DNA from: Pseudoscleropodium purum
Lineage: Eukaryota; Streptophyta; Bryopsida; Hypnales; Brachytheciaceae
Direction: 5' to 3'
Length of the DNA stretch: 64,000 nucleotides
Assembly (NCBI GenBank): GCA_963969395.1
Contig: OZ017797.1
Coordinates: 4,154,001 to 4,218,000, forward strand
The notes under the pieces are model-generated. The model worked only from the letters and a program-made list of their open reading frames with translations, was not told where the DNA came from and ran no database searches. This document shows positions 5,401 to 39,110 of this stretch, in pieces. The position numbers were made by a program, and so were the translations under genes. Numbering within the stretch: position 1 is the stretch's first letter; the number at the start of each line of letters is the position of its first letter.

Positions 5401-5427
5401 TTTGTACTACATATAGGGTCAAATATT

Positions 5428-11820: not shown

Positions 11821-12200
11821 TTCTTCATAGAAGTTTCATACTCATGAGAAGGTGTAACAACTCCTAATGACTCCATACCTTCTCTCACTCTTCATAGAAG
11901 CTTCATTCTCTCCAAGGTGTAACAATCCCTAATGACTCCATACCTTCTCTCACTCTTCATAGAAGCTTCATTCTCTCGAAGGTGTAACAATCCCTAATGA
12001 TTCCATACCTTCTCTCACTCTTCATAGAAGCTTCATTCTCGAAGGAAATGTAACAACCCTCCATAACTCTATACGTGCTCATTCTTTCATAGAAGTTTCA
12101 ATCTTGAAGAAGGTATAACACTCCCTAATGAATCCATACCACTTCTCATTCTTTCATAGAGGCTTCATTCTCGGGAGAAGGTGTAACAACCCCAAACGAC
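11821..12200. repeat. minisatellite block 2, ~64-bp unit
   Basis: About six copies of the unit seen at 10866-11100. The three copies between about 11880 and 12050 are nearly identical and the outer copies are more diverged. The block ends directly at the GC-rich promoter region of the phosphate transporter gene, so it marks the AT-rich/GC-rich boundary. The 700 bp between the two blocks (11100-11820) is AT-rich and has no recognisable feature. Confidence 0.8.
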
Positions 12201-12220
12201 TTCATCACTGAAAAAATAGC

Positions 12221-14800: not shown

Positions 14801-16772
14801 ATGCCGCAACTCGAAGTGTTGACGGCCTTGGACACGGCCAAGACGCAATGGTACCACTTCACGGCGATCATCATTGCCGGTAAAGATCACTCTTGAATTA
14901 CTCCCCCGACTTTTACAGTTAATTCACAACCAATTTCATTATCGATTATGACCGCTCGACGTGATTTATCTTCAACTTTTTCACCTGAAACCTCACTCAT
15001 CTGTTAACGTGTTGATTTTGCAATGCAGGAATGGGATTTTTCACCGACGCATACGATTTGTTCTCCATCCCCGTGGTCACGGGACTCCTTGGCAGACTCT
15101 ACTACCAAAAACCCGGCGCCACCTCGCCCGGCGTCCTGCCTGCTAACGTGAACGCCGCTGTGAGTGCCGTGGCCTTGTGTGGGACCCTGGCGGGTCAACT
15201 CTTCTTCGGATGGCTTGGTAACAATTCACATTCACTCCCTTATTGTCGTTGTCATGTGACTTGATTCATTCCAAGAGCTGTCAGTGAGTGATCGATCAAT
15301 CATGTGATTGTTCTACAGGTGATAAATTGGGTCGGAAGAAGGTCTACGGGATGACGCTCATGCTGATGGTCATAGCAGCCATTGCCTGCGGTCTCTCCTT
15401 CGGCCACACGGCAGGCTCTGTGATGACGACTCTCTGTTTTTTCCGCTTCTGGCTTGGTTTCGGAATCGGTGGGGACTACCCTCTGTCCGCAACGATCATG
15501 TCAGAGTATGCCAACACCAGGTACACTGATCAATCCAACCACTCCCTCTCTGAAAATTGATGATCTCAAATCAAAGAATCTCGACAATTAATCAATCAGA
15601 AGATTGACATGTTTATTTTTTGGGTTCCACATGATAGGACGCGAGGTGCATTCATTGCGGCTGTCTTTGCGATGCAAGGCGTGGGGATCTTGGTTGCAGG
15701 TGCAGTGGGTTGCATCGTCTCTGCCATTTACAACCATGCCGTCCAAGCGCCGCCATTCTCCGTCAACGCGGACGCTTCAGTGCCAGACTCGTCCGACTTC
15801 GTCTGGCGCGTCATCCTCATGTTCGGTGCGATACCAGCTCTTGCAACGTATTACTACCGACTGAAGATGCCCGAAACTGCGCGGTACACCGCGCTCGTGG
15901 CCGGGGACGCAAACCGGGCAGCTGAGGACATGGCGAAGGTGCTTCAAGTTGAACGCATCCAAGCCATAGAAAGAAAGCAAAACGAGAAAATTCGTTACGG
16001 TTTATTCTCGCCGGAATTCATGCGCAGGCATGGTACCCACCTACTCGGCACAACATCCTGTTGGTTTCTACTGGATGTGGCATTTTACAGCCAGAATTTG
16101 TTCCAGAAAAACGTCTACTATGCCGTGGGGTGGCTCCCAAATGCAAAGAATATGTCGGCCGTGGAAGAAGTGTTTCGGATCTCGAGAGCGCAGGCACTCA
16201 TCGCACTGTGCTCCACCGTCCCGGGTTACTGGTTCACGGTGGCGCTGATCGACCGCATCGGCAGGTTTAAGATCCAGCTGATGGGATTCTTCTTCATGAC
16301 CGTGTTCATGTTGGGCCTCACCATCCCATACTACCACTGGAGAAATCATAACCACGCCGGGTTTCTGGTCATGTATGCTCTCACGTTCTTCTTCTCAAAT
16401 TTTGGCCCGAACAGCACGACTTTCATCGTCCCTGCCGAGCTCTTCCCCGCGCGGTTTCGGTCGACTTGCCACGGAATTTCGGCCGCGGCGGGGAAGGCTG
16501 GTGCTATTGTAGGATCGTTCGGGTTTCTCTACGCGTCGCAACCCACCCGTCAGAGTCAAGTGCCAGCGGGATACTCCAAAGGACTCGGACTTCGGGGTGC
16601 GCTTTTCATTTTGGCGGGCGTCAATGCTGCGGGATTCGTGTGCACGTTTCTGGTGCCGGAGACGAACCAGATCTCGCTGGAGGATTTGTCAGGGGAGAAT
16701 GAGGATTCTGCTGCAGAGAATGAACTGTCCAAGCAGAGTGCTGCCGACGGAGATGGTGTCATTCATAAGTAA
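14801..16772 (+). CDS. PHT1: PHT1-family high-affinity phosphate:H+ symporter
   Basis: Plasma-membrane inorganic phosphate transporter of the major facilitator superfamily, driving Pi uptake with protons. Four coding exons: 14801-14879, 15029-15217, 15319-15520 and 15638-16772, all with GT-AG introns and intact phase, giving 534 residues (family norm about 520-540). The N-terminus ([20 protein letters not shown]) is typical. The PHT1 signature [13 protein letters not shown] is at residues 140-152 and runs into EYAN and [14 protein letters not shown]. The conserved substrate-site helix with WFLLD and AFYSQNLFQ is near residue 300. [22 protein letters not shown] and a C-terminal [14 protein letters not shown] complete the family pattern. 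The long central hydrophilic loop lies between helices 6 and 7. Start chosen as the first ATG after a leader acceptor and by homology. P1BS sites upstream suggest Pi-starvation regulation. No break is visible; I expect it to be functional. Confidence 0.96.
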
Positions 16773-17099: not shown

Positions 17100-18840
17100 G
17101 AATTATTTCTTTCTGCATTGATAATATTTGATTTGCTACCTCGCCGTCTGGATTCTAGTCCCCTCTGAAGGAACGTGTGCAGGAGGGAGATCCTATGAGG
17201 TAAAATTGATTCCGGTCAAGTGAAGGTACTGTACTGCACAGTCCATTCAGTATAATTCAAATCCGTGGCTATGTACTAAAAGGCAAGGCTTACAGGTGAC
17301 CCTCTGTACGTGCAAGCATCCAGGTTACGATTTTCTTTGGAGGTTGGAGCTTAAGGCCGACCCGACCTTTCAGAAATTCTGGTGCGCCGTTGTGGGCACC
17401 ACAGGGGGGTTGGAAATAGTTTTCAACCAGCAATTGACGCGTCTCGGTAGAACATCACTAACTGCGTCATTGCCCCAAGCGCAGAGATGAGATGGCCATG
17501 GACCGTGTCCGGTATTTGTTTCTCCTGATACTAGAATTGCTACCAATCTGTAAGGGTTATATAACGTCTCCTGCAACCTTCTCTCAAGTTGGAGGCAAGG
17601 TCACATCTCCAGCTAGCTAACTGACTCTATTCTTCGACATGAAGGCATTCTCGGAAGTTAGATGTACGCAAATCCCAAGTGTTCGCCCATCAGCAACATC
17701 TTTTGTCTCCTCAATCGTGCTTCACAACGCATGAACATTAGGCCAAACTTTGCAATAGGGGGAGTCACATTGAATTCTGGCAAATTTGATGAATTCCGTC
17801 AGCTCAATGAATTGGGGAGGTGACCTCTTCAGGGTCCTTCACTTTGTTATTTCGACAAACTCATTGAATCCCAATTTGTCAAGTGCTAAAGCAATGCATA
17901 GAATGAGAGACAACGAAATTTGTACGGAGAACATGCAATGTACTTGAGCTCAGAGTACGAACTAGAAACTAGCCCTCCATTTCTTGTGACGAAAGAAAAT
18001 GGATGAAGTGCAAGTGACGTTTGGATTACCCAAATTCACTAAAAAAGAATAGACAATGACTCAATCTTTGCAGTTGGGGCGTTGCAAAAGGCGGTGGTCT
18101 TTGTTGAACGTCTAACTGGAAAGTGAACACCAAAGTCTTCAATGATATAAAAATTATTTTCCGACCTCTTCCATTTGCGTTTATCATTTGCACTGAAGAT
18201 TATGTTGCAACACGGCTCTGCTAAGTTCATCGTCTATGAGGTGACGGCATTAATTTTTCTTGTTGATTGGTGTTGAACAACATGACAAGTACTGCTTGCT
18301 GTCTGCAAAATTAACGATTCTTTGATGTTGAATGTTATGATTGGTCAGCAGCAAATTCAACCTCATTATCTTTGAAAGCTATTCCTGAAAATCTGAAACC
18401 CACTGATGTTGGTCCTACTCAAGTCTATTTCTGAAACAGGTTGCTGTTGACCCTGCACTCCAATGAATCCTTGGTCTTTCACGGAAAATAATTGCCAGGC
18501 TCCACGCTTGTCTGCTGAATTATCTAGAATATACGAATCACTTGGCTCTTTTGTATGCAGCCTGCCAAGCATTCATGTATTCTTTTTGCACAAAAAGCAA
18601 GAGTGTATCATCACCTGATTGCAACAATGTTTTTCAAGCAAAAACATCGTTGCCATGGGAAGAAGTCCTCTACTTCAAACCATCAAGCCTTGACTTCAAC
18701 AGTGCTGCAGCAAAGTGGGGTCTGCACCCCACTGAAATACAAAGTTTCATTCCACTCTAGATGACAGAAGGGGAACTCCAGTCTCAAAGACTGGCGTGAA
18801 TGGGGCATCTGTTGGGAATGGCTCGCCCTTGATGTCTCCC
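17100..18840. other. intergenic DNA, no gene recognised
   Basis: Mixed-composition sequence downstream of the transporter. Open frames up to about 72 codons are present on both strands (for example 18542-18760) but show no splice-linked continuation or family motif. No RNA gene or clear repeat was seen here. Confidence 0.5.
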
Positions 18841-19790: not shown

Positions 19791-20218
19791 AAAATTGTGA
19801 ATTTTGTGAATTTTTGAGGTAATTAGCCTGACATTACAGAACTGTTCATAGACTAAAGTCATAAACAACCTATAACCATCCTTCTATGTATCTATTAACA
19901 TTTAAGAATCCACCAATCAAGGGTTAACATATTATCCCATGTTGACATTGAAGCCAAAATCTTGTCAAATTTTGTCAATATCTTAAATGGTTTAGGATCT
20001 TTTTAGGATAGATTTGAATGGGGCCAAATAATAGGACACAGAATTGAGAATTAGACGGTGAAGGGTTGATCCATCATAAGTCATTTTTGTAAAGAATTGT
20101 CACATGTTATCTTGTGAATGGTGTGAGGTGACATAGAACCCTGAAAATGTGATGTGGATATTCAATTTTGGCACCTAAGTGCTGAATTAGACCTTCAAAT
20201 ACAATACATAGTCAAGAC

Positions 20219-20684
20219 TGTCGTGTAAAGAAAGATCGATAACCACAACAGATCGAGAGTCTCAACCAACATCAAACAAACGAAAAACATAGTCAAACAC
20301 AACTATGCTAAGTACACCCTCGAGGAGTATGTTGCAAATCACAAAAGTAGTCAAGTGGCACGCACTCCACAAAGGGAGAATCAACGAGTGTAAGAAGTAT
20401 GAGAGAATGCGGAGCCTTCACTAATGACAAACAATCACTTACAAGCAACGGTAATCATTAACACTCTCTAACTCACTCACAAAGCTTAACTTGACAAAGA
20501 CGTCAAGTCAAGCACGTGTGCACTACTATACGCATACACACACAAAACCTTAACGGATTAAACTCATCCGTAGGATGAATGAGGTGTGTCAGCCGCACGT
20601 CCCACACACACGTAGATTAGCAACAACTAACCTACGCTAAAACACTACGATGTGGAGAGGCCCCCGACACCACATCCCGTGATA
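20219..20684 (-). repeat. left (3') LTR of the retrotransposon
   Basis: About 466 bp, starting TGTCGTG on the plus strand. It has two parts: A (20219-20324), repeated at 20687-20792 with one mismatch in 106 bp, and B (20325-20684), repeated at 29102-29457. The minus-strand ends TATC...GACA (TGTC in the right copy) give the usual TG...CA LTR termini. It is preceded by AAGAC. Confidence 0.75.
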
Positions 20685-20686
20685 GC

Positions 20687-20792
20687 TGTCGTGTAAAGAA
20701 AGATCGATAACCACAACAGATTGAGAGTCTCAACCAACATCAAACAAACGAAAAACATAGTCAAACACAACTATGCTAAGTACACCCTCGAG
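20687..20792 (-). repeat. partial LTR duplicate (part A only)
   Basis: A 106-bp copy of the first part of the left LTR, placed two bases inside the left LTR and cut off at 'cctcgag'. The pyrimidine-rich 'tgtcccctct' follows; it is purine-rich on the coding strand and could be the polypurine tract. In a normal element nothing of the LTR should be repeated here. Confidence 0.8.
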
Positions 20793-21106
20793 TGTCCCCT
20801 CTAGCGGATAAAGAGCCCCTCTAATTCGCTAGGACTAAACAACACAACATAGACTATCGCCACGGTGATGTCGCTGCAACAACTATACGCATCCAGTCAA
20901 AAGGTAATCCATCGCTAAATCAATAAGCGCATGGAGAAGTAACAAAGAGAGGGTAGGCCAGGTGCAATGTGAGCCCCATCTTTAATCGCCTTAGGCAACT
21001 TTGTTGTTAATCCCTTGGTCAATCTTCACGTTGCCTATGTTTGAAACAAAACCAAGAACTCTAACTAGATGGCAACGCACCACACCAGTGAAAGTGCATG
21101 AGAAAG

Positions 21107-21742
21107 TCAAGCCAGTTCACTACGTGAAACATGGTTAGAAAATCTCCTACAACGAGGGCAAGTCCAATCCCCGGACGGTAGAGTAGAAAGAGGCGGCGTC
21201 AAGCAAGCCATATGCCATCCACGCTGGCAATGATCGCACAATAACATGGTAGCAGCGTCCTTCTTCTCACCACACACAAAACATGGAAGGCCCTCTGGCA
21301 CAACGGCCAACTCAGGATGAACGGAGCCATCAATGGGTAAATGGCAAGGAGCACAATTTTTAGAGTGCTCCCGACACTCCTGGCCATCCATGCCTTTCAA
21401 CAATAAGATACCACTGGGCAACACATTCTTCACGCGAAGAATGGTCCGTCCAGCCTTGACATCCAACATCGTGGGTGCCTCACGCTGCAAATAAACGTAA
21501 TCCCCCGTGGAAAAACGTCGCAACTGAGGTCGGTAGGCGCCGCTACGAATGTGAGCGTACCGTAGCGTGTCGCGATGCTGAGCAATGGATAAATTCTCCA
21601 TGGCCATCGGCATGGCCTGCTTGAAGAACTCTGCTCGGTCACGCAAACACTGGATCCACACCTCTGGATCATCCAAATCCACAACAGGAGCCAATTTCTC
21701 CTGTACAGAACATGGTAGAATGGGCTCCCGTCCGTATAACAA
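21107..21742 (-). pseudogene. integrase C-terminal region with PHD finger
   Basis: 211 codons without a break, ending in TGA at 21107. The first half is typical integrase C-terminal sequence (LLYGREPILP near the start; 'GAYRPQLRRFSTGDYVYLQR', the GPY/F-like barrel; 'ILLLKGMDGQ'). The last 60 residues form a PHD zinc finger: CFVCGEKKDAATMLLCDHCQRGWHMACL, then a short loop and 'GDWTCPRC'. That is the C4HC3 spacing (C-x2-C, C-x2-C, H-x2-C, C-x2-C) with the conserved Trp two residues before the last Cys pair. PHD fingers commonly read the histone H3 tail. In this place chromoviruses carry a chromodomain, so a targeting role is a reasonable inference. This is the least damaged part of the element. 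Confidence 0.85.
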
Positions 21743-22222
21743 CTAATACGGACTGAAAGCAGCCAGTGAAGCCTATCGACTAAACCGATACCCCATGGCG
21801 ATCCATGGTATCATCAGATCCCAATCACGGTGGCCACTTTGGAGTAATCCATACTTCCGTAGGCCTCATTCCACGGTCTGAACCACACACTCCGCCAAAC
21901 CATCCGCTTCCGGATAATCCTGAGAAGTGGTACGATGGTCAATCAAAGCCTTGGTACACAAAGCTTCAAAAGCCCCAAGGAACTCTCGCCCCTGATCAGT
22001 CAAAACCTCAGCTGGGGTTCCAAAACGAGCCAACACTCGGTCGAGGAATGCCATGGCCGCCAACTTTGAAGAGTTCTGTGGAAGAGCCACAAGCTCAATC
22101 CACTTGCTGAAATGCTCCACCATCACCAAGACATACTTGGCTCCACGTGGAGTCACGACAAGTGGACCAGCAAAGTTCAAGGACCAACGATAGCCCAATC
22201 CCATAATGGGCAAAGGTTGCAA
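21743..22222 (-). pseudogene. integrase catalytic core, broken
   Basis: Same frame as the RT piece after the TAG at 22223. The core reads 'YRWSLNFAGPLVVTPRGAKY', then 'VLTDQGREFLG' (second catalytic Asp) and 'EADGLAECVVQTVE' (catalytic Glu region). The position of the first catalytic Asp is Asn (SLNF rather than the usual Asp). In-frame stops are at 21866 (TGA), 21773 (TAG) and 21743 (TAG). In the family this enzyme joins the DNA copy to the genome; this copy could not. Confidence 0.88.
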
Positions 22223-24250
22223 CTACGGTGATAAAGTGTTGAAGCTGGATCGCACCCGATCACACACCTCACACCGTGAAACATAAGTGGCGACTTGCTG
22301 ATACATGCCGGTCCACCAATACTGGCTGCGCAACATCGAATGAGTCCGTTGCACACCAAAATGACCAAGGTCTTCGTGTACTTGCCGTACCAACAAAGCC
22401 CTCTGATCTGGCCTGGGAACTATGCGCCTAGTCCCATCCAGCCACACCCGAAATAGAAGGCCGTTCTCCCAACGAAACCTTGTTATCCAGTGTCCAACTC
22501 GATCGCGCTCCATAGCCGAAAGCGCAGGTGGAAGCATCCCATGTTGTAGCTTGTGCAAGACTGGAATGTCTTCCCACACATTGCTAACAACTTGGGCCTT
22601 GTCTGGTTCCTCATCTGTTGTCAAGTCAAACAACGTCGATGCAGAGCCAGACATCAAGGTGAGATAAGCCGCTGCATGCCACCCTGGAACTGACTCCCTA
22701 TCACAATCCCCATGCCACCTAGCACCAGTCACATCCTCTTCCGAAGGACTTGGATTGCAAGAAAGACCATCTGCATCCAAGTTGGTGATGCTAGCCCGAT
22801 GTACAACCTCAAAATCATACTCTTGAAGCAACAAAGCCCACCTGGCAAGCTTGCCAGTGAGCTTGTCAGACTCCATGAGCCACTTCAAAGGCTGGTGGTC
22901 GGTCACCAACGTAAAACGTTGCCCATACAAATAAGGCCTGAAATGAGCTATGGCCCAAACCGCTGCCAAAGCCTCCCCCTCATAGGATGAATAGTTGGAC
23001 TCCGCATTGTTGTTGCTCCTAGAAGCAAAAGCAACAACATACTCCCGTCCTTCCTCATCCTTCTGAGTCAATACTGCACCCAATCCCACCGCACTCCAGT
23101 TTGTGTGCAATTGAAAGGGCCGTGTTGCATCCGGACGCCGCAATACAGGAGCTGAACCGAGCTTCAGCTTCAAGGTAGCAAATGCATGCTCCTGCTTGTG
23201 TCCCCAAGTCCATGGTTGATCCTTTCCTATGAGAATAGTCAACGGTTTAGCAATCAAGCTAAAGTTCTTAACAAATCGGCGATAGTAATTCGCCAAGCCA
23301 AGAAAAGCTCGAAGCCGTGACACGTTGGTTGGGGCAGGAATCTTCTGCAATGCATCCACCTTGGCCTGCTGTACGCCAAGACCCCCTGGAACAATCATGT
23401 GTCCCAAATATGGCAACCGGTCGCAGAAGAACTTGCACTTGCCATGGTACAAACGCAATCCCCACTGCCGTAATCTCTCAAATACCTCTTGAAGATGCCT
23501 CACATGCTCTTGTGGGCTGCTACTAAAAATGATAACATCATCGATATAGCATCGAGCAAACGGTAAACCGGTCAACACCCGGTCCATCACCCTCTGAAAC
23601 TCAGCGGGTGTGTTCTTGAGGCCAAATGGGAGAAACTTCCAATTGTAGAGTTGATCTCTCCCATCCAGATCAACTCCCCAGAATGCAGGCTTCACTCGGT
23701 CATCCACCATCAATGGTAACTGATGATAACCAGACCGCAAATCTAGAGTACTAAATACTCTAACGTGGCCCACCGCATTAAATAACTCCTCTAACATGGG
23801 CATGGGATACCGGTTTGACTTGGTCTTGCGGTTGACAGGTCTATAATCGCCACACATCCGTTTCTCCGTCCAATTGCCAAAGACATCCTTCTTCGATGAC
23901 ATAACTGTGGCACAAGCATATTCACCGTTAGAGAGTTCAATCAAGCTGGCGGCCAACAACTCCTGACAACGAGTCTGCATGCCAACTTTATCTGAAAGAC
24001 TGAGCTTGTACGGGCGTCGGAAGATCGGGTGGTCGTCCTCCAACTCAATGTGAATGGGTTTGCCTTTATAGCCCTCCAAATCATGGAGACTAAAGGCAAA
24101 ATAGCTGCGATACGAACGTATGAACGCTTGCACCCTTCGTGCCTCGGCACTGGTAAGATGTGGCCCTAACTCCAAAGGCCAATCATGAAACTCCGTGGTC
24201 TCCTTCTCCACCGTAGAAGACTCACTGCGTACCGGTACGGCCGATGATTG
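22223..24250 (-). pseudogene. pol: reverse transcriptase, RNase H and integrase zinc-binding region
   Basis: A 676-codon open stretch, the longest intact piece of the element. RT: 'SKKDVFGNWTEKRMCGDYRP', 'STLDLRSGYHQLPL', 'LPFGLKNTPAEFQRVMD' and the catalytic 'CYIDDVIIFSS' (YIDD). The connection and RNase H follow (YLGHMI, RAFLGLANYYRRF, then 'HTNWSAVGLGAVLTQ', 'YEGEALAAVWAI', 'VTDHQPLKWLM' and 'NLDADGLS'). The first RNase H catalytic position, normally Asp in the TD-x-S motif, is Asn here. The integrase HHCC zinc site is seen in 'HEDLGHFGVQRTH' and 'CEVCDRV' near the end. It stops with TAG at 22223, just before the integrase core. RT-RNase H-integrase order is diagnostic of Ty3/gypsy. Confidence 0.95.
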
Positions 24251-24540
24251 CTACTTAGTAGCAGAGAGGGCATTCATGCCCCCAACCTTCTCACTCACGG
24301 GATCCACATAAAATCCCATATCGTGATGATAAAACCGGGAAAAGATTTTCCCAGCATCCTCTCTACCAAAGTCCTCGACCAAGGCTACAAAGACACGCTG
24401 AGCACAAAGCTCCTCATCTACGTGCCTCTCCAAACGAAAAAGCAACTCCGCTTCCTTGCTCTCTGTGAGATGTGGCACCGCTGCCCCCTGACCATCAGAG
24501 TCTGCCCCCAGCACGTGTGGCTGGTCACGCGAACGGCGCT
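24251..24540 (-). pseudogene. linker between methyltransferase and reverse transcriptase
   Basis: Continues the frame of the methyltransferase C-terminus for about 95 codons, rich in charged residues (for example 'ESKEAELLFRLERHVDEEL' and 'FVALVEDFGREDAGKIF'), and ends in a TAG at 24251. No domain recognised. The same frame reopens into the reverse transcriptase. Confidence 0.6.
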
Positions 24541-25531
24541 GAAAGGCAAAATAGAGGCCACAAATCCAAACAAGAGTGTTGAGGTCAATAGCTTGACCCA
24601 ACAAATAACAACGTTGGCCCTCAGAGAGATCCGGTGCCGTAGTGGTGCCTGTCAAAAAGCCCATGGCCCGCTCCGTCTCATTGGCAGAAGGCTCCTCGTA
24701 AGTTTGGGAAGTAGAGTCCCAAACCATACCCGGACCGCGTGTCCTAAAGGCAAAAGACCCAGGGTAGCACATCAATGTGGAAAATGCCCCCCGTGTGAAA
24801 CCAACGCGGTTCACCACAGCCAAAGGTGGCTCATCATCCTTGGTAACCTCTGTGGAAACACGATGGTCGTCCAACATGTCATCCACCTCACGCCGCAGGG
24901 TCGCTGCACTTGTGCAAGTGCAGAGGTGAGCGTTGCCGATGATGCCAAGTTGGTCCAAATCCAACATGGCCGATGGGCGTAAGAGCCCAACGCCGCGGCA
25001 TCAACATACGTGGGGGGACCAAGAAGGTGATGGATGTATGCCCCATCCTCACGCACCTTCGTCTATGTATCCCCCAATGGAGGTACATTCTCAAAAATGT
25101 ACCCCAGTGGGCAGTGGCATCGATTGGTGGGTAATCCACCACTGGATGAGCCTAAGCAAATCCGCAAAGAGCCCCGCCCGTGGATCATCCAAGCCGCATC
25201 CACTGCCCGCCCGTGAATGGCCTTGGCAAGGCCATCCGGCAATCACCAAGTCCACGTGACCCAATCGGCGAAGATCATCCTCACTAATCAAGGTCACATC
25301 ACGTGGCAATTTACCAAAACACCCTCGAATCGCAGAAGGTGGTAACTGCTCTGGATACAACGCCAAAAGACGTTGGATGTGATGGTGAGCGGCACGGTTG
25401 GCCGCAAAGCCACTATCCACATGAATGTACTGTCGTACTTTGAGCCCGGCTTCTAACACCGCCGCTAGCCCTCTACCAATGCCGGCAAAGAGCTCCAAGA
25501 GGGTAATACCCTCATTTGGTGGACGCCACTA
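24540..25531 (-). pseudogene. C5-cytosine DNA methyltransferase domain inside the retrotransposon, broken
   Basis: From 25498 the frame reads ELFAGIGRGLAAVLEAG (motif I, AdoMet binding), then an acidic-tip segment (YIHVDSG), then DLVIAGWPCQGHSRAG (motif IV; the PCQ catalytic cysteine is intact). A frameshift near 25100 follows. In the next frame are FENVPPLG (motif VI, ENV) and, after a TAG at 25063, YVDAAALGSYAHRPCWIWTN (motif VIII-like). A further shift near 24920 leads to the C-terminal part with ERAMGFLTG (motif IX-like) and LLGQAIDLN (motif X-like). All core motifs are present in the right order, so a whole catalytic domain of about 320 residues was carried. It lies between protease and reverse transcriptase in the same polyprotein. 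Known enzymes of this fold methylate C5 of cytosine in DNA. The target-recognition part is short. Methylation specificity cannot be read from sequence. Confidence 0.88.
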
Positions 25532-25567
25532 AATAGTGCGAGCCAAAAATGGGGTAGAAGAATACTC

Positions 25568-26798
25568 TCAATAATGCGAAGCATCCAAAGTATCAACAAT
25601 CTCCCGACTGCGGCGAGTGAGCTCCAATTGAGTCCCCCAAGGTGGAACCGGATCCTTGCAATGATGTGGAGGGATCTGTGGTGGTACGTGCTCCCGTGAT
25701 TTGGCTACCCCTAACATAAAAGCATATGTCTCCTCTAAAAGCGTAGAACCACATGGCAAATCGGATGCCAAAGCGCTGCACCCAAACATAGCATCCGCCG
25801 TAGGAGTCACTGTGCTAGATGCGAAGACAATGGGGATAAGCTCCTTGTTGCCATCACCGGCAAACCACCCAAGCCTGATCCAAGCCTCCTCTGTCCAGTT
25901 ATCCACCCCAAAGCCGAGTAGATAAAGTGCCTGCTGACCCACCAAAATGTCGTAGTTGGTGGCACCAGTCACAACGCACTAAAGAGAGACATGTGAAAAC
26001 AATGGACCAAATCCACGCCAAACATCAACTGTAATGGATTTTGGGTGTACCCCATGGCCTTCTCCGTTCCCCCAACCGATGTGACAATTGTGAATGGGCA
26101 AGCTCGAGGTCTAAAGCACCTAGATCCAAATCTTGGGCTAGTTGTTTGCCAATCATCACTGGCTGAGCCCCGGAATCCAATATAACACGTAGGGGGGTAG
26201 CTCGAGTGGGGTTGCCATCCGTACAGCCAACCACCATGACTCCGTTGTCATTCACCAAACGTATCACCCCTGGACATACACTACGTCGCTCCCGTGCCGA
26301 CCGGGCTGCAACATCAGACAAATAAGCCAGTCCAAAGATCAAGGACTGATCCTTGGATGACTCCTCCATAGGTGTGGAAGTGGCATTGGCCTCAAACGCA
26401 GAAATAGCCTCCGCCGCCAACTTGGCCCGCATTGCCACCAAATCCTCCTCAGTGGATGGAGCCGTCATTGCTTGTGACACCTCCAACGACGGAATGGGCA
26501 CCTTGCCTTCCAACATACTACCCGCCAAGTAGAATACACCGGATGGTTGAAAATCCAATGTGAGAAAGTCCACGCCAGCAAACACCGGCAACTGCAACAT
26601 CTTATACGCCAAGGTGTGTGCAGCATCTCCACGACTAGAAGAAACCGGTGGGACCGGATTCGATGTGGGAGCGGCAGTAGAAGAAGCCGCATCCATGATG
26701 CTAAACGAAAGAGGTAGCCGGGACTGACCAATGTGGTCCGGCAAACCCACATGGCGTGAACGATTACTACTACCTAGCACAATGAAAGAGGGTGCCAC
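25568..26798 (-). pseudogene. retropepsin-type aspartic protease region, frameshifted
   Basis: Continues in the gag frame after the stop at 26802. The active-site motif is in 'LRVILDSGAQPVMIG' (DSGA, about 26160-26200), followed by hydrophobic sequence. The frame is lost near 26100 and again near 25990, where about 120 bases are in another frame and then the reading returns in 'VTGATNYDILVGQQALYLLG' (25972 onward). That latter part is a conserved stretch between protease and the next domain in related elements and contains a tryptophan-rich block (DNWTEEAWIRLGW). It ends in a TGA at 25568. The protease would have processed the polyprotein; as it stands it cannot be made in one piece. Confidence 0.8.
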
Positions 26799-26801
26799 CG
26801 C

Positions 26802-28244
26802 CTATGCAATGGTCTGAGCACGAGTGGCAACCACTGCCACCACCTCCCCTGAAGCACCATACAAGTAGCGATCTAGGGCTACAGATGAGCCCTGACCCCT
26901 CACCGCAGGCCGTGTGTCGGCCACTTGCCCCAGAAAAGCCATCGCACTCATCTGCTTCTTTAGCTCCGCCAATTCGGCTTGAAGTGATTTCACAGCCTCT
27001 GATCCGCCACCTGAAGACGTCGGGTGCTTCTCAAGATGAAGAATGAAGCAATTCTCATCATTGTGGCCGAGCTTGCCACAATGAAAGCATGTCACAAGCT
27101 TCTTCCCCTTGCCTCCAGTCTTCTCCGCAGGTTTGGCCGCCTCGGTCTTGGGCTTGGTCTTCCCCGCCCCTGCCCCCTTCTTCTTGGGACAATTGGGGTC
27201 CCCTTTGGTGTGACCGGCCTCTCCACAAGCCCAACAATACACAACCTTTTCAGATTGTACCTCCGCCAAACTACTTGTAGCTATAGCAAGCTTCTTGGGC
27301 TTGGGAGCCTCTAAAAACAACGTGACCAAGTCTGTGGCCTCACTCACGCCTAATGCCCGGTCAAGCGCTTCCACCTCGGCGAACGCTTGAGCCAAGGTCA
27401 CGTTGCCGCCGTATTGGAAGAGGAGGTGTGGGCTGATCAACTCAACCATCCGCTTGTCTAGCTTGGAGATAAAAATCTTCACAAGCTGACTTTCCGTGAA
27501 CACATCACCAGCCTCCATTGACAACCATGACAATCGAGTATACATAGTGTGTGGGGTATCCTCCTTCTCATGGCAGAAATCCTGGATGCGGCGCATCTAA
27601 TCACGCCGAAAACCCCCATACTTCATCTCCAAATGCGCCATAAATTGCGCCAGAGGATTGAAGCAAGGCGGAGGACTGACTGCCTTCAATGCCGCCCGTG
27701 TGGCTTGAGCCAAATGTGACATGGCCCCCAAGACGGAACCCTCCTCATCTTTAGGCAGATCGCCAAAAGAAGGAGCTCGGGCAACCGCAGCCTCCTTGAA
27801 TGCAGTCACCAACTCCACACAATCACGCCAATAGTCCTCAACTGGGGGCAATTCCTCTGCGTGCGATGCAATCCACCTCCCGTATGTCTGAAGTGCCTCT
27901 AGCTCCAAATGTTGTGGCAACAACTCAAACGCGTACCAATCGTTGAACGACAGTGTCCACTGGCGCTTCTCCTTCATCCATGTCTGGAATCAGAGTTGCC
28001 AATCGAGCAAGGAGATACCCCCAGCCCGTCCCAAGAACCTGTCTCGCACAACATGACGAAAATCATCCTCCATGTCGCCAAACGTGTCCACACTCCAAAC
28101 TCGAAGCCTATGATCGGTATCCAACGCCGAAACAGGCTCAAAAGCCTCGTCGGTATCCAACCCTGGCCCAAAGTCTGCGGTGGAAACACTTTCCGGGTGG
28201 TCTGGTGAGGGGGAGTGGTAATACCGACTTCTGGTACTCATCAT
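26802..28244 (-). pseudogene. gag: retrotransposon gag (capsid/nucleocapsid), broken
   Basis: Reads from the ATG at 28244 in one frame, with in-frame stops at 27990 (TGA), 27597 (TAG) and 26802 (TAG). The middle has helical capsid-like sequence (WTLSFNDWYAFELLP, FMAHLEMKYGGF, and a region around 'FISKLDKRMVELI'). The C-terminal third has two zinc knuckles: CWACGEAGHTKGDPNC (spacing 2-4-6, slightly long) and CFHCGKLGHNDENC (the classical 2-4-4), separated by a Lys-rich linker, then a short coiled-coil-like Leu/Lys stretch. In the family this protein packages the RNA into particles. The frame continues without a shift into the protease, so gag-pol was probably a single polyprotein. Confidence 0.88.
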
Positions 28245-29101
28245 AAACAGCAACCACCAAGGAAACTATGTACGGGTACTATCTAAAAGGTAAGGGTACG
28301 GACGGGCAACCTGCACCTGCAAAATCACCAAGCTATATGGATCATTGGTCATCACCTCCGGCTACCACAGATCCAACCACAACCCCCCACATAAAAAGGT
28401 CTTGCCGGCCATTAACCCGACTTCACCCCTACAATACCCTATCACAATCTGAGACAACAAGAAATGGAGCCACCGGAAAACACCGGCAACAAGCCCGCAA
28501 CACAGGGGAGGTACCGCACAAGAATCCAGAAATCAAAACCAGATCCTCTCCCCCAACAACATAAAAGCAGAATTGACAAAAGAATTAGAGCCACTGGCAC
28601 GCGCCTGCAGTGGATAATCCCAAGTCGCAATATCTGCAAAGTAAGAGAAACACCAAAGATGTTCCCCAAATGTCTAAAACTAAGGAGGAGATGGAATCCT
28701 ATGGTCGCGGTGTTCACAAACACTAATCCCCCATTACTTAGCAAAACAATGGGTGATAACGCGATAAAATGTCAATCTAACACTAGAATTGGATAAATGA
28801 CGAGATACTCAAACTATGGGCACAAATTTCACTCACAAGCGAGTAAAATTGCCCTCACAAACTACCTCCAAAGTTTGACACTAAACTTTTCTTTTTTTTT
28901 AATTTTAAAAAGGCACATAAAAATGTGATTTTTCAAAGTTTTGAAAACTAAATTTTCTTTTCACCACTAGGCTTACAATCCCCCCACGAACTCAAATCTG
29001 CAGACGGAATTCGAAAATAACAAAAATTGCAAAAGTCGGAATGGGACTTCCAATTGGACTTGCAAAAGTCGGAATTGGAATTGCAAAAGTCTTTGTCAAG
29101 T
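28245..29101 (-). other. retrotransposon 5' leader (non-coding)
   Basis: Between the gag start and the right LTR. No family-like frame on the minus strand. Contains AT-rich sequence and three short direct repeats near 29018-29090. A primer-binding site should lie next to the LTR, but the sequence there does not match a tRNA 3' end that I recognise. Confidence 0.5.
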
Positions 29102-29457
29102 GAGTATGGTGCAAATCACAAGAATAGTCAAGCGGCACGCACTCCACAAAGGGAGAATCAACGAGTGTAAGAAGTATGAGAGAATGCGGAGCCTTCACTA
29201 ATGACAAACAATCACTTACAAACAACGGTAATCACTAACACTCTCTAACTCACTCACAAAGCTTAACTTGACAAAGACGTCAAGTCAAGCACGTGTGCGC
29301 CACTATACACACACACAAAACCCTAACGGATTAAACTCATCCGTAGGATGAATGAGGTGTGCCGGCCGCACGTCCCACACACATGTAGATTAGCAACAAC
29401 TAACCTACGCTAAAACACTACGATGTGGAGAGGTCCCCGACGCCACATCCCGTGACA
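29102..29457 (-). repeat. right (5') LTR, lacking part A
   Basis: 356-bp copy of the B part of the left LTR (from 'gagtatg' to 'cccgtgaca'), about 95% identical with mostly transition differences and one short indel. The 106-bp A part that should precede it on the plus strand is missing. Its left edge coincides with the A/B boundary at which the 20687-20792 copy stops. Short direct repeats ('ttgcaaaagtcggaat', about 29018-29090) lie just inside it. Confidence 0.8.
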
Positions 29458-32400
29458 AGACACCATGGGCAAGGCCTAAGAGTCTAATCCCCCATCTTGG
29501 CATAGTTGACTGATTTACAACCACTAGGCGCAACAAATGTAGTTGGTTTTCCCTCAACTTGTGGCATACAATGAAATTTGGATAGAACTCAAAGTTAGCT
29601 ATTTTGGCTTTATTTTTGTGTTTTTTTGTTGACAAAGTTGTTCACAGTGGTGCATCATTGTAGTGAATTGTGGGTTGAATTTTAAATTACTCAAAATGTA
29701 GGGCATAGGTTGTGCCTCATGGTCCAGCTATAGGAAGAGGATCCCTAGATCAATAGTGCATGCCACTTCTATCGGGCACGAGAGACAATTTTTGTTGTGG
29801 AGATTTCATCACCCCACAAACACGATGCTCTAACGATTGATGTGAAATAATGACCCTAATGATAAATAAAGGCTAGCTTCCATGTATAACAATACCTAAT
29901 TAAGCCCACCAATCAACATTAGAATGGAAGTCTGATTTTTTTGGAGTTCCCATTTCAACATTAATTGGTGGGCTTCATCAATGCCAATTCCACATGGAAG
30001 CCAACCCTAATTGAGTATTAGATAACAATGCAACTTTCTCATGAGTGTAGAATGTCTTAGTTTGGGTTTTATAATTTTTTGTTTGGACATTTTAGCAACT
30101 TTAGCAAATGTTTTAAGGATTGAAATGTTGGACATTTGTAGATAGAGACACAATTGGATTCAAGATTGACAATGTATATAGACATCCTCATATGTGTCGC
30201 TTATGTTTTTCCAGCTACATGTAATATGTCTACAATGGAATATAATTCATTGATAAACCATAGTCAATTGCACAACATTTTCTATAGATGGATACTCATT
30301 AGATGAGATTCACATTTTCAATGAGCCCATGAATTCTCTAGGTTCCCAAACTATGGGAACTTGGCTATAACAACTCTTTGACATGGCAGAACAACTGCCA
30401 TGGTAGATTATTTATTTATTTATTTATTTATTTTTTTAAATTATTATTTATTCTAGCCAACAATAACTAATTCGTATCATGGAAAATGGGCTTGAATCCC
30501 CCCTCTAATGCCCCCCAAAAACATCTAATTAGTAACTATATGTTAAACCTTTTCTTACAATAGAAAATGTTTTATGCTCTAAGAAGAGTGCAGTTAAATT
30601 TTTAATGTCAATAAAACCAAGGATTCATTATTTAATCTCCTCAAAGCTAACCAATGGAATACAAGGGCTAAAATGATCAATTTGATTGATCATATTGTAA
30701 AAAAAATTCTTTGGATAGATTCAACTTTGATGTAATTAGAATTAGCAAAAGACTTTGCAAAGTCACATATTGATGTTAACTTTCATGTATGAGGAAAAAT
30801 AAAACTGAATGATACAAAGTGTCCATATGACTCACTTAATTGATTACAACATTATGAGGACTAATTTGGGCCATTAGATCCTTTAAAGAACACCCCTTAA
30901 TGATCAAGGGTACAAATTTAAAACAACATATAAATGCATCATGTCTCAACATAGAGAATTTTGTTTTTCTTTTAAAATCAATTTTAGAAGAAAAAAACTT
31001 GTTTTGAGTTTTGGTTTGTATACTAGTAGATATAACTAATGGATTGGATTCTACAAAATAAATTTTTGTTGTGAAGTCATCACTAATTTTTATTTAAAAA
31101 AAAATTTAAGTAAATATTTATAATTTTGGAATTTGAATTGCTATCAGTCCTTAAAATGTTTAATAGAATCTTCTAACTCCTAATTATAACAAATTTATAT
31201 ATATATTAAAAACACCCAATGGTTGTATAGGATAAATTTAGAAATATATAATCCAAATTTGTTTCCCAATTAATGAACATTACTTCATTTGAAGCTAAGA
31301 GTCATGGATAAAATCCTCATATCTATGTAGTAAGCTAAATAAGTAATTGACACCTTCTAAAAGACTAGAATAGTGTATTTAAGTGAACAAAGATCTATAA
31401 AGTTCAAGACCTAAATCATTCTTGGTGTAAATTAGACCTTGCCATCATGTAGTTCTAAATCAAGTAATAAAAATACTTAGTTGCTTTAAACTACAATTAG
31501 AAAACCTTGGTATAAAAAGGCTCTTATTGCTTCTTCATCCAAAATTCTATGTTCTAGGGGATCTTTCATAGTGATAACCAAAGATTATTATTGAAATTTT
31601 AGCTAAACATTGCAAAGTAGAAATATGAAAAGGATATAATCTACTAAATTGAACAATTTTTGTGAATATTCTAATATATTTGGGGGAAATATTCATAAGT
31701 GTACAATGGTATAATTGAGGATATGAGTGTATTAATCAATTTAACCCTAAGTGACCAAAAATTTATTTTATAATAGTTTTTTGACATTGTTAGATGTCTA
31801 ATTTTTTAAATAAATTTAATTGATTCATCCTTAGTTGCTACATTGTACAAAGAATATTTTTGTGGTCAATTCTTTCATATAAAAAAGTAGAAAGTATACT
31901 ATACAAATCATCAAAGAAGGCATTCTTCACATTAGTTACTACATGTATACAAGGGGTAATTTTGAAGGTCTATAAAGTAATACACTTGAAATATAAATCT
32001 TTTAAAATACATTTTTGAGAATTAAAGAATGTTTTCTCAAATGATTTTTTAAGTCCTTATTTTACTTACAAGACTTTTAAATATTTGATTGCTAGCAATT
32101 TAAATGGCACCCAATTGTTTGAACTCACCTAATTTTCTAAGACCCATTCTCAATGTTCCCCCCAACTATAAAACATTCTTACTATAAATTTTTATACTAT
32201 CAAACAAATATAATAATGCTTTCCTATGTCAACTATTTCCTCATTTTTTCAACTAAAAATGTATAGACAATTTAAAACATCACGAAAACATAATTTTTAT
32301 CAAAGTTTTACTTCAATAGATCTTCAAAATTAAAACACTTCTACCTTTGTTTGAAGAAAATCTATAGTGATGTTTACAATAGTGTAGCCATAGTTTCTAA

Positions 32401-32640
32401 TGATCATACCTAACCAAGCACATCAATTTTTCATTGATGCAAACTTCAAAATTGAACAAGTATTGAAAAAGTCATGCTTTACTATAGCAAATCTATTTTT
32501 TATTTAAATTCCATACTCCTTGAACATCATGTAAGGTAGGAGGTCCATAAAGTGATTTGGTTTTACACGTGTCCCTTATCTCAGAATGTGACATTTTCCT
32601 TGAAACATCTATGATTGTCATTAATGGAATAGATATACTT
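29458..32640. other. AT-rich intergenic DNA
   Basis: No gene recognised. Contains a (TTTA)n run near 30407-30433 and the foldback at 29871-30006. Otherwise featureless AT-rich sequence with only short chance frames. Confidence 0.55.
29871..30006. repeat. imperfect hairpin, ~60-nt arms
   Basis: 29871-29930 and about 29947-30006 are imperfect reverse complements: 'agcttccatgt' pairs with 'acatggaagcc', and 'aagcccaccaat' with 'attggtgggctt'. The predicted transcript is a single hairpin of about 135 nt with bulges, the size of a plant miRNA precursor or a short MITE. No expression evidence can be given. Confidence 0.5.
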
Positions 32641-32648
32641 AACTCTAA

Positions 32649-32968
32649 GGGCCGCTTCACACATGGGCCCAAGGTTGAGAGTTCGTTGGCCTCCACCGAT
32701 CAAATTTTAAAAAAACCCAACTTTGGCCTCTCAACCCTTCATACAAAGTGGCACAATCCAAAGTCCGTCATCCTCCAAAGCTCCTACATGGCAATGGCCT
32801 CACGACGGACTCTCAACCAAAGTTTGGGTCGCCACAAAGTGGCCACCCAAACTTTGGTCAAAAGTCCGACCAATTGTTCATTTATTGCCCATTTCTTTGG
32901 ACTCTCACCCAAAGTTTGGCCATGAACTCCCACGGCCTCTCGACTTGGTCGGCCCACATGTGAAGCGC
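32649..32968. mobile_element. 320-bp MITE-like foldback with CTCTAA target duplication
   Basis: GC-richer island in AT-rich DNA. Terminal inverted repeats: left 'gggccgcttcacacatgggcc', right complement 'ggcgcttcacatgtgggcc'. Flanked by a direct CTCTAA at 32643-32648 and 32969-32974. The interior is itself largely palindromic: 'accaaagtttgggt' and 'acccaaactttggt' flank 'cgccacaaagtggcc' near 32815-32860. It has no coding capacity. The class is uncertain because a 6-bp duplication and this terminus do not clearly match a superfamily. Confidence 0.7.
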
Positions 32969-32979
32969 CTCTAAAGTGC

Positions 32980-33475
32980 TTTGGCTTCCATATTCTTGGT
33001 GATGAACAGAGGGCTTGCAAGCAATGTAGAGTCTAACTAACTTCTCACACATCCAATGTAATACTTAAATCTTGAAAAGCATTAGAAGAGTTTTTTGGGA
33101 GCAAGAGGGTCATTTGAGGCTTATGTTCTCCGTAGTTCCCCCTATAGTTAAAGGATGCCAGATTGTCACAATTTTTTTTGATAAAAAAATATTGAAAATT
33201 CTTAAAATTTTTAAAAAAAAAAGTTGAAAAAATATTTAAAAGATGACATGGCAGTCATTCTACAATGTCATACAACAACTGTCGTGATTTCCAACGGGCT
33301 GAGAAACTGCAAAACTCACTACCCTCCAAACTAGATAAATTTCTTCTAATGGACAACCTTCCTTAATGACCAATTTCATGAAATTGTTGTAAATGATATT
33401 TCTGTAAACAACAAATATATAAATAAAAATGTCCAAAAACAATCAGAAAAAGGATGGAGATATTAAGGGGTTAAA
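32980..33475 (+). repeat. dispersed repeat, related copy in GDSL intron 2
   Basis: Starts 'tccatattcttggtgatgaacagag' and ends in 'aaggggttaaaagg'. The outer parts match 54965-55175 in the same order (a block around 'cttccttaatgaccaatttc' and one around 'aatgatatttctgtaaa'). The middle (33085-33320) is absent there and instead resembles 1085-1440. A composite interspersed repeat, unclassified. Confidence 0.5.
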
Positions 33476-33479
33476 AGGA

Positions 33480-35030
33480 CAATTTCTAGACCTCCTACTT
33501 TAGGATTGTAGGGCCTCCCTTTTGTCTTGTGCACAATGACTGACTAATTTTTCATCCACGCAATGTGAACAGAATAGTCTGGATTCACGCCACTAAACTT
33601 GTACTCTCATTTGTCACGGTGCCGGCTTTTTCCTGTCCAATTATCTTATTGATACAGGTACCCTTATTGGTACAAGTCACTGTAGTAGGATTCCAAGCAG
33701 ACAGCAGCTGTCTTTGGATATCATTCATATAATTTAAGGTAGCACAATTGCGAATATATTATAATGCGGCAATCATCCAATTTTCAACTTCATATCCAAT
33801 TACTGCACATTTGGTAGCAGGCAGTAACTGCCTCTTTTGAATGCATTTTGAGTGCATAGTTCAGGGTTGACTCCACATTCAGTTTTAGGGCAACATCCGC
33901 AATGCTGGGCTCTTGGTGTCCGTTACAAATAAAGGTATAGGTAGCTGAAAACGTCCTTATACTCAATGGCATCCGTTTCTAGGAAGGGGAGTCAATTCAG
34001 AACATACATGTAGACATACCAAACAAAGCTTATTAATTGTTGATCGACATGATAAGCCATGTATGATTCACTTAGATTTGCGTTTCAAAATTCTTCTTCC
34101 TTCTTAGAAAGGGATGCCATTGGGTACAAAGATGCCATTGGGTGTCTCTACCTTAGTCATGATACAATTGGTGTAAACTATAAAGTCCTAGATGAAGTGG
34201 GCATCAAAGAAATTGTTGCTTTTTGTTACTATGCCTAATTACTATTATTAAAATTGAATTCAAATTTTCATTGATTTTCTTGTGGAAAAGTGAAAAAAGA
34301 TTTGAACTCACCAAAGAATGCAACATTTGGATACCATTTTCTTTAAGTTATAGAGGGTTAAATATTTTTTTCCTGATAGATTGATTTTAGAATCATTTTT
34401 CTTCAACATAGGTACATATCAATTTTGGAGATTCGTTTGAGAGTGATGATAGCAGTTTTGGACAATGGTATATTTGGAAGGGGGGAAGGGGGGGGGGGGG
34501 GTAGCTAAACAACCATTCATAATTTGATACATACTTTCATCCATAATTTGATGTAGAGATGTAACCTTGTGTCTTTGAGAGTGTAGAATTAGATATACGG
34601 AGTACTAGTTGTACAACCATTGCAAAAGTGTACAACAACAATTTTGTCGTATATGTTTATGTACACATGTTTTTGTTTTTGTTTGTTTGTTTTTTGATTA
34701 CATGGACACTTTTGTGCACATATTTGTTTGCAAGAAACAAAGGAAAGTAATGTGTGCATGATGAATCACAAGAATGCTCATCACACTCTAAATTTTCATT
34801 CATTTGTGAACATTAGATGTAATAATTGGATGATATTTCATGAAAACATGATAGATTTTGTAATGCTCAAAAAATCAACTAATGATGGATGTTTAGGAAA
34901 TATTTGAATTGACAATTTTGTTGGTTTGGGATTGGCTTCATTAGTGTAAAAACACCTACATCCAACTAGAGTTCAGTACCCAACTTGTAAGACACTAGTA
35001 TTTTGAACGGCAAATAGGGAATGATTTGTG
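33480..35030. other. intergenic DNA
   Basis: No gene recognised. A minus-strand frame at 33790-33972 has somewhat protein-like sequence (SIADVALKLNVESTLNYALK) in a GC-richer patch, but it is only 60 codons and has no identified continuation. A G-run (about 34480-34501) and T/G-rich repeats near 34670 are also present. Confidence 0.45.
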
Positions 35031-35031
35031 G

Positions 35032-35106
35032 ATTGTAGTATCCACATATTGGATATGTGGATACTACAATGTTATGACACATGTCTCTACTCTTACATGT
35101 AAGAGT
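35032..35106. repeat. two adjacent perfect palindromes
   Basis: 35032-35049 and 35053-35070 are perfect 18-bp complements with a 3-nt loop. 35089-35106 (ACTCTTACATGTAAGAGT) is an 18-bp perfect palindrome. Both lie within 75 bp. Function unknown. Confidence 0.7.
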
Positions 35107-35178
35107 GAGAAAGTAGTTATGACTTTAGTGAATACAATTGGAAGACTCTAAAATTTGGTTGTGGGCTCAGATTACATT

Positions 35179-35268
35179 CATTACAAAAAATTTGAACCCT
35201 GCAAAGGGCCATTAAGAATTCATTTTTCGGCTCTCCACAATGCAATTCCAGAAAATGAAAAAAATATA

Positions 35269-35326
<58 letters not shown>

Positions 35327-35472
35327 GTCTTATGTGGTGCTAACATGGCACAAGTAATGCCACACCATCAATGTTCATTAAAAAATAAAAACCTTGAAAT
35401 TCCTCTCTAATTGCACTAGGGGGGGGGGGTCGAAACTTGCGGCCCTTTGCAAGGTTCAAAATTTTTGTAATG
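35179..35472. mobile_element. MITE-like element containing an ATA microsatellite
   Basis: The ends form about 31-bp terminal inverted repeats: 'cattacaaaaaatttgaacc' and 'gcaaagggcc' on the left, matched by the complement of the right end ('ggccctttgcaaggttcaaa' and 'atttttgtaatg'). The interior holds about 19 copies of ATA (about 35269-35326) and a G10 run (35419-35429). No coding sequence and no clear target duplication. Confidence 0.6.
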
Positions 35473-35596
35473 TTAGCTTCCAAAAAACACAATAATTTCA
35501 ATTTCAACAATAAAATTACAGAAAAATTGCTATCTTGATATTCTTATCTCTCTACAAAGGATAAATATGCATTTCCATTGTGTGTCACAAAATTGC

Positions 35597-36075
35597 TTAA
35601 CCCCTAAAGTTCCTTGACTATGTTTTCACCAAAAACACTCCAAAACTGCCATTTTCAAGACAAGTACCAAAAAAAACTTTGAAACATTTTTGGACACATT
35701 TAACTGTAAGATCTAGTATTAAAATGATTTGAGAAGATGTGGAAAAATTTTCAGAATTTTCCACCATGTAGATTGCAAGATATTAGCGTTTCAATTGACA
35801 AAAAGCCTTTTTTTGACCCTGCAAAAAACCGGGCAGCTGCACTTCACAAGGTCACATTTGTATGAAAAAATGTCCAAAATGGTTGCATCTCCTTGGATTC
35901 ATTTTTCAAGGCAAGTTGGCTACATGCTTGAAAAATTTCAGATCATTTGAAATTGTACAACATATAGGAAAAAAATAGTAAGTAGAAAGAAGTAGAGAAT
36001 GAATCAAAATACTAAATTGTTAATAATTCAGTTATGGAATTGAAAAATGTCAATCCCAATGGTTGTAATGTTGTA
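35597..36075 (+). repeat. dispersed repeat, direct copy at 63523-64000
   Basis: Colinear with the last 478 bp of the window, around 85% identical by eye. Shared landmarks are 'aacccctaaagttc', 'gcaagatattagcgtttcaattgac', 'gggcagctgcactt' and 'agtagaaagaagtagagaatg'. It contains no long frame. The second copy runs off the window end. Unclassified interspersed repeat. Confidence 0.8.
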
Positions 36076-36079
36076 GTAT

Positions 36080-39000: not shown

Positions 39001-39100
39001 ACACACATGTAGGAAGATAGGAAATATGGAAATAGCAAAAAATTTAGAATTGTATTTCCAAAATTGAAATTATTGTGAGCTTTAGGAGTCAAAGAGTGCA
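36080..39100. other. AT-rich intergenic DNA
   Basis: No gene, RNA or structured repeat recognised. The phrase 'cctttaggggttaa' and its complement recur here and elsewhere in the window (for example 38450, 55161 and 61311), which suggests fragments of one interspersed family. Confidence 0.5.
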
Positions 39101-39110
39101 TTTTACTAGT

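Follow-up and report, generated by a model that had tools for sequence, protein, structure and literature searches.

DNA methyltransferases (DNMTs) of the DNMT3 type are mentioned as cargo of retrotransposons in streptophytes and dinoflagellates in a passage of PMC12344493 that cites a 2018 paper, and their capture in dinoflagellates and charophytes, noted in a preliminary description of the DNA studied here, is documented in the main text of PMC5890265. That text describes KnitGypsy-Dnmt3 of Klebsormidium nitens, in which Gypsy domains and a Dnmt3-type DNMT share a polyprotein with DIRS-like A-coding-B-A-B repeats and evidence of purifying selection, and SymbioDIRS-Dnmt3 of dinoflagellates, which combines a DNMT of the same type with split direct repeats and for whose domains CG methylation activity was demonstrated. 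Here we analyze a family that shares these features, starting from a 64,000-nt stretch of Pseudoscleropodium purum contig OZ017797.1 (GCA_963969395.1, positions 4,154,001-4,218,000 of the forward strand; hereafter the window). We think it rather probable that this is a Ty3/Gypsy element from a streptophyte host (likely a bryophyte) and that it makes a Dnmt3-like DNMT as part of a Gag-protease-DNMT protein, primes its own reverse transcription, integrates from circles and methylates its own DNA.

The element in the window is a decayed copy at 20219-29457 on the minus strand, the strand of all its parts given below. Its limits are set by its repeats, termini and target duplication: it runs from TGTCACGG to ACACGACA in the arrangement a-coding-b-a-b, between copies of the duplicated target GTCT at 29458-29461 (5' side) and 20215-20218 (3' side). 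Pfam matches on its open reading frames (ORFs) give the order gag, protease (PR), DNMT, reverse transcriptase (RT), RNase H (RH), integrase (INT) and PHD finger. The decayed gag region (26802-28244), aligned to the relative L001 introduced below, holds a zinc knuckle, CWACGEAGHTKGDPNC (zf-CCHC, E 0.0021, below the Pfam cut-off), and is followed by a decayed aspartic protease (DSGAQPVM) with its linker (25568-26250; Asp_protease_2, E 0.0031, below the cut-off, as is the matching region of L001 at E 0.00078). Behind the DNMT (24512-25528) and an in-frame UAG stop (24251-24253) lie RT, RNase H and the integrase zinc finger (RVT_1, RNase H and Integrase_H2C2; 22223-24250), the integrase core (rve, PF00665, E 5.6e-14; 21866-22222) and, at the integrase C-terminus, the PHD finger (PF00628, E 4.3e-12; 21149-21283). 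The order PR-RT-RNase H-INT with an rve integrase is that of Ty3/Gypsy elements (Metaviridae), with the protease match below the Pfam cut-off; no tyrosine recombinase, the hallmark of DIRS elements, was among the Pfam matches of the element ORFs, where rve is present instead.

An undamaged relative of this element is available as a 9285-base public contig with identical 127-base ends (CADCWO010000201.1, here L001). Its frames are intact, comprising gag-PR-DNMT (read across the contig ends), a stop, and RT-RH-INT-PHD. L001 is filed under the uncultured cyanobacterium AVDCRST_MAG81 in a species-representative collection, although it is a eukaryotic-type retrotransposon; its presence in a cyanobacterial metagenome assembly is most likely contamination, and we take the name to mean a desert crust. 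Measured against L001, the DNMT of the window has gained a small insertion, lost a single base and acquired a premature stop. Because these break its frames and further stops interrupt the other genes, the window copy is dead.

The preliminary description had read a C5-cytosine DNMT between protease and RT from the letters of the window and suggested a search with the PF00145 (DNA_methylase) profile. This search was significant on the frame at 25528-25091 (E 6.5e-11; score 42.7 bits, with the cut-off at 22). Motifs I to X do follow the canonical order claimed for them, but not in a single reading: motifs I and IV share one frame, ENVP and HRPxWxWTN lie in a second, and LLGQAIDLN is in the first again. 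With a profile built from 37 relatives, the nearest solved structures were DNMT3A and DNMT3B chains, and DNMT3 chains also came top for the predicted fold of the L001 domain (model mean pLDDT 61). DNMT2 matched the profile at 4.3e-3 only, and nothing under the names DNMT1 or CMT was among its structure matches, which is no proof of absence. We therefore describe the enzyme as Dnmt3-like, a typing by profile and fold ranking rather than by a full DNMT phylogeny. An origin from DRM methyltransferases is disfavoured by the canonical order of the motifs and by a weak match to 4onj.

The 313-Mb host assembly contains 72 matches to PF00145 at E up to 0.001. Inspection of 22 identified 21 as copies of the element family, window included, and one, the top match (L002), as a host DRM-type DNMT gene in which, by eye, motif X precedes motif I. 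The other 20 copies were fetched at length; since they were picked for strong or long matches, they are no random sample of the 72. All 20 show the order gag/PR-DNMT-RT (two with a partial RT only), so that the placement of the domain holds well beyond the window. We rejected a chance or secondary insertion of the DNMT on the number of genome matches and this uniform order. The fetched copies fall into two subfamilies, 15 near the window copy and five whose DNMT is 54-56% identical to that of L001. The DNMT is one open frame in 10 of the 20, and pol is broken in every one. Paired a repeats have diverged by 0.026-0.079 in 13 copies, and by 0.041 in the window. That the window is bacterial or a contaminant was likewise rejected, given the host DRM-type gene and a PHT1-type phosphate transporter exon in the flank of the element (15564-16772, plus strand; 1.4e-119 to the solved 'Inorganic phosphate transporter 1-11').

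Sequence comparison shows the DNMT to be under purifying selection. Between the window and L001, the ratio of nonsynonymous to synonymous substitution rates (Ka/Ks) is 0.165 over its 421 codons, being 0.07-0.09 in motifs I-VIII and 0.37 in the tail; the corresponding values elsewhere are 0.098 (RT-RH), 0.056 (INT), 0.106 (PHD), 0.18 (protease part) and 0.16 (gag). The low ratio in motifs I-VIII indicates that the DNMT core is kept about as strictly as RT. As a protein query, the DNMT piece found 59 relatives among 187 candidates, of which 15 continue upstream into the protease linker; the motif IV triplet is covered by 38 of the 59 (three more stop inside it) and reads PCQ in 34. A dead passenger or functionless chance insertion might be suspected from the broken DNMT of the window and of 10 of the 20 fetched copies, but the Ka/Ks close to that of RT-RH, the retained PCQ, and the same place of the domain in both subfamilies, L001 and Marchantia make this explanation very improbable.

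The position of the DNMT ahead of the UAG may bear on how much of it is made. DNMT, UAG and RT share one frame in both L001 and the window. The stop context is UAG-CAA-UCA in all 16 subfamily-1 copies (window included) and L001, and UAG-CAA-CCA in all five subfamily-2 copies; the UAG lies between the DNMT match and the RT match in each of the 20 fetched copies and persists while the surrounding frames decay and the preceding codon varies (AAG, AAC). Both contexts (21 of 21 copies and L001) satisfy UAG-CAR-YYA, the leaky readthrough context of the tobacco mosaic virus (TMV) type, or Type I. The Pol part, from RT to the PHD finger, would be made by reading through this stop, and if the UAG is leaky, then Gag, PR and DNMT would outnumber RT and integrase, which perhaps places the DNMT at the level of Gag. 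Around the UAG of L001 (3450-3570), the RNA of this single sequence folds better than all 200 of its shuffles (z -3.65).

DNA methylation is a plant's weapon against retrotransposons, and a DNMT under selection inside such an element therefore raises the question of what methylation gives the parasite. Our best guess is that the DNMT methylates the element's own cDNA in the particle, a reading favoured by its Gag-level position and by the CG activity of related domains (SymbioDIRS-Dnmt3, as given in the main text of PMC5890265). Packed in Gag-like amounts, the enzyme would act on freshly made double-stranded DNA, either ahead of integration or in its course, the methylated copy would enter the genome resembling host DNA or already quiet, and the PHD finger may steer the integrase to a histone mark. 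We consider it unlikely, but worth weighing, that the DNMT instead acts on host chromatin at or near the target, or that it limits the element itself by silencing new copies and so sparing the host. The Gag-level dosage implied by the UAG position would supply much enzyme for this, the integrase does bear a PHD finger, and de novo CG methylation by related retroelement DNMTs is on record in the main text of PMC5890265; the present data do not separate action in cis from action in trans, and the CHG share of the decay of the window copy suggests host enzymes. C-to-T changes in the window relative to L001 number 145 of 845 at CG, 109 of 712 at CHG and 188 of 2353 at CHH sites, and 54 of 660, 53 of 570 and 153 of 2487, respectively, in the reverse direction. 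This CG and CHG decay resembles the trace of ordinary plant methylation on a silenced copy; on the element's own enzyme it is uninformative. Methylation of RNA, either genomic RNA or a tRNA-like part, is a target that the authors of PMC5890265 raise in its main text for LINE-borne DNMTs and that would suit an enzyme travelling with Gag; with the domain nearest to DNMT3 and DNMT2 so distant a match, we regard it as improbable.

Self-methylation in the particle would act on DNA whose form is suggested by the repeats of the family. In the window, repeat a1 (29102-29457) is 95% identical to a2 (20325-20684), and b1 (20686-20792, 107 nt) is 99% identical to b2 (20219-20324). Nineteen of the 21 copies could be scored at both ends (all except L011 and L023). 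Thirteen of these insertions are a-c-b-a-b, where c is the coding part, which is the DIRS-like arrangement of the KnitGypsy-Dnmt3 kind, and the six others arrange the same repeats differently, as a-c-b in five and as a-b-a-c-b in one (L028). Among them, L020 (a-c-b-a-b) has a fragment inserted in its last b and L029 (a-c-b) a large internal deletion; the piece in L020 (9688-9964) resembles its own gag (3022-3298, 91%). All 19 have a at one outer end and b at the other, rather than the identical long terminal repeats (LTRs) of Ty3/Gypsy elements. A perfect 4-bp target duplication flanks 17 of the 19 (three of four bases agree in L013 and L020), in a scoring whose script may use the end score to select one of a few boundary offsets, and the termini are TG...CA in 18 and TA...TA in L015; short target duplications and TG...CA ends are features of Ty3/Gypsy elements.

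The same repeats have the boundaries of LTRs made by reverse transcription: b starts directly after a purine tract and a stops directly before the primer site. The tract is GCTAGAGGGGACA in the window (20793-20805) and, by eye, GCTAGGGGGGGCA in L001 and GCTAGGGGGGCA in L028. Reverse transcription, delimited by the polypurine tract (PPT) and primer-binding site (PBS), would thus produce LTRs of the form b-GC-a, inside which the end of b and the start of a meet as a 10-bp palindrome, GACA-GC-TGTC. The b1/a2 junction is CGACAGCTATCACG in the window and the palindrome GACAGCTGTC in L001. The palindrome is perfect in L001, in L023 (subfamily 2) and, among the 12 fetched copies of the a-c-b-a-b form, in 7. 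Variants of it occur in the window, L019 and L028, the pattern is unmatched in L012, L017, L020 and L022, and the five a-c-b copies are without the palindrome junction, as expected. We propose, for a type of element not known to integrate from circles, that the element DNA circularises and that integrase cuts the palindrome within the LTR, in which case a one-LTR circle would yield a-c-b and a two-LTR circle either a-c-b-a-b or a-b-a-c-b. The three insertion forms are fitting products of such circles, a reading favoured because of the single a-b-a-c-b copy and the PPT and PBS boundaries.

Two points weigh against integration from circles. First, a-c-b could equally arise by recombinational loss of a2-b2. 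Second, the split repeats might be inherited in the manner of DIRS elements, with b1-a2 templating a circle junction and a2/b2 copied from RNA instead of arising anew when LTR ends join; this is a live rival, which we rate as possible though doubtful. It would suit the joining point of a2 and b2, identical in seven a-c-b-a-b copies (the window and six others, which differ by base changes in b and by one in L025), and the DIRS-type repeats ascribed to KnitGypsy-Dnmt3 in PMC5890265 (legend of Fig. 4c). However, a b that begins at a PPT-like tract and an a that ends at the primer site resemble LTRs made by RT, while the a-b-a-c-b copy and an rve integrase with 4-bp duplications suit circles cut by integrase.

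Right after repeat a comes a sequence complementary to a stretch within a. In the window this putative primer-binding site, ACTTGACAAAGAC (29089-29101), pairs over 13 nt with the predicted 5' end of the transcript at 29278, and a TATA box near 29307 lies 29 nt ahead of that start, which coincides with the self-complementary 13-mer. None of 5000 shuffles reached 13 nt, and in L001 the last base pair of the complementarity is altered on both sides relative to the window, from G-C to A-T. Of 16 subfamily-1 copies, nine have 13 nt of complementarity and three 12; the others have 10, 8, 8 and none of at least 8. Four subfamily-2 copies pair over 19, 18, 18 and 13 nt with a quite different primer sequence (L023, which has no a before the coding part, is omitted from this count), and in the four examined no TATA box lies about 30 nt ahead of the complementary stretch. 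In predicted RNA folds, for L001 as for the window, the 5' end pairs to the primer site, the start itself having been chosen from the complementarity. As for a tRNA primer, the first TGG after a1 is only at base 50, and no comparison with tRNAs was made. Self-priming like that of Tf1, in which the RNA's 5' end is cut off to serve as primer, would be the obvious reading of these sequences; a transcript beginning in a would fold back and prime reverse transcription. Repeats in steps of 54 bases lie downstream of the primer site in L016 (803-1096) and also in L011, L018, L021, L024 and L025, in varying number.

In the scheme as a whole, the transcript start, the circles and the role of the DNMT are what we infer. 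A stronger form of it, which we advance tentatively and hold to be somewhat less probable than its opposite, makes the integration precursor obligately circular: one- and two-LTR circles would both integrate through the palindromic integrase site in the LTR, only two-LTR products would replicate again, the particle-borne, Gag-level DNMT would mark the circle, and the DNMT-plus-PHD lineage would extend from charophytes to land plants. If true, marking of circular DNA perhaps hides or holds circles before integration. For this DNMT-Gypsy lineage, the older idea that LTR circles can be integration precursors would gain new life from the three insertion forms. The family offers a tractable system for such questions: the DNMT frame of the deposited contig L001 is intact, and many insertions can be dated.

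The PHT1-type transporter exon, the DRM gene and the protein relatives of the RT point to a bryophyte as host, although a charophyte is conceivable. An RT search gave 1851 matches with 8000 candidates scored, of which 120 were listed. Among those listed, PF00628 is present in 32 and PF00145 in four (P0095 of Marchantia polymorpha, P0137, P0138 and P0176), an under-count for the DNMT because the listing had no room for proteins above roughly 1181 aa; the best-scoring species-named relatives listed are from Calypogeia and Marchantia. The L001 DNMT is 38-44% identical to those four over 187-302 residues. In P0176 (1110 aa) the DNMT follows RNase H instead of preceding RT, and the domain has therefore moved or been gained twice. 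With the PHD part as query, 472 of 541 candidates matched, and proteins of Marchantia, Calypogeia and Klebsormidium are among the 120 listed. In a tree of the 85 RT rows, out of 122, that had sufficient length (SH-aLRT support, midpoint root), the window, L001 and P0060 group together (97), then with P0061 and P0062 (99), within a 23-row set (99) that contains two Marchantia proteins and one from Calypogeia. Scans of IMG/VR viral contigs gave no relative.

Elsewhere in the window are a U4 spliceosomal RNA gene (17356-17488, minus strand, 92.7 bits), a frame resembling, by eye only, a protein-isoaspartate methyltransferase exon (57498-57908, minus strand), a 476-base dispersed repeat of 88% identity (35597-36071 and 63525-64000) and two arrays of a related tandem repeat of about 65 bases (10859-11089 and 11822-12205). 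AT-rich intergenic DNA at 1-12000 and 29460-40000 has CpG at 0.18-0.26 and CHG at 0.20-0.44 of expected; the element and genes are not so depleted.

As a DNMT-carrying Gypsy element, the family is of a kind already known from KnitGypsy-Dnmt3 (main text of PMC5890265), with a host that is a streptophyte and likely a bryophyte as the first new aspect. The titles and abstracts that searches of the freely readable literature listed (subscription papers and preprints apart) included no report of land-plant DNMT retroelements, of PHD fingers in Ty3 elements, or of split repeats with a gypsy integrase. The extension to land plants foreseen in the preliminary description holds if the host is a land plant; the host is a streptophyte with a DRM-type gene, and Marchantia protein P0095 (Mp_2g26090) joins protease, DNMT and RT in one predicted protein, its RT showing 64% identity across 62% of the query, its DNMT 42%. 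P0095 differs in being a gene model with some altered motifs, known here from the protein alone. The host lineage of KnitGypsy-Dnmt3 is different, and a K. nitens RT (P0093) falls outside the 23-row set of the window. The account of KnitGypsy-Dnmt3 in PMC5890265, as consulted here, mentions neither a leaky UAG nor self-priming nor the three forms of insertion, and the word PHD is absent from the main text, yet a K. nitens integrase protein with a PHD finger exists (P0298). SymbioDIRS-Dnmt3, according to the same text, has a tyrosine recombinase, whereas the present family has rve and 4-bp target duplications. The preliminary description did not mention the PHD finger, the UAG that follows the DNMT, the splitting of the repeats or the self-complementarity of the primer site. 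Beyond its host, what is new in the family is a PHD finger ending the integrase, a DNMT ahead of a TMV-type stop in 21 of 21 copies, three insertion arrangements among 19 copies, 17 of them with perfect 4-bp duplications, and putative primer sites that differ between two subfamilies and are complementary to where the transcript is predicted to start. Unlike this family, Tf1 and Tj1 are not known to carry a DNMT, and their LTRs are ordinary. The probable likeness to them lies in the primer site, which in Tf1 and Tj1, as set out in part of PMC4600332, is complementary to the 5' end of the transcript, and here to a start that is only predicted.
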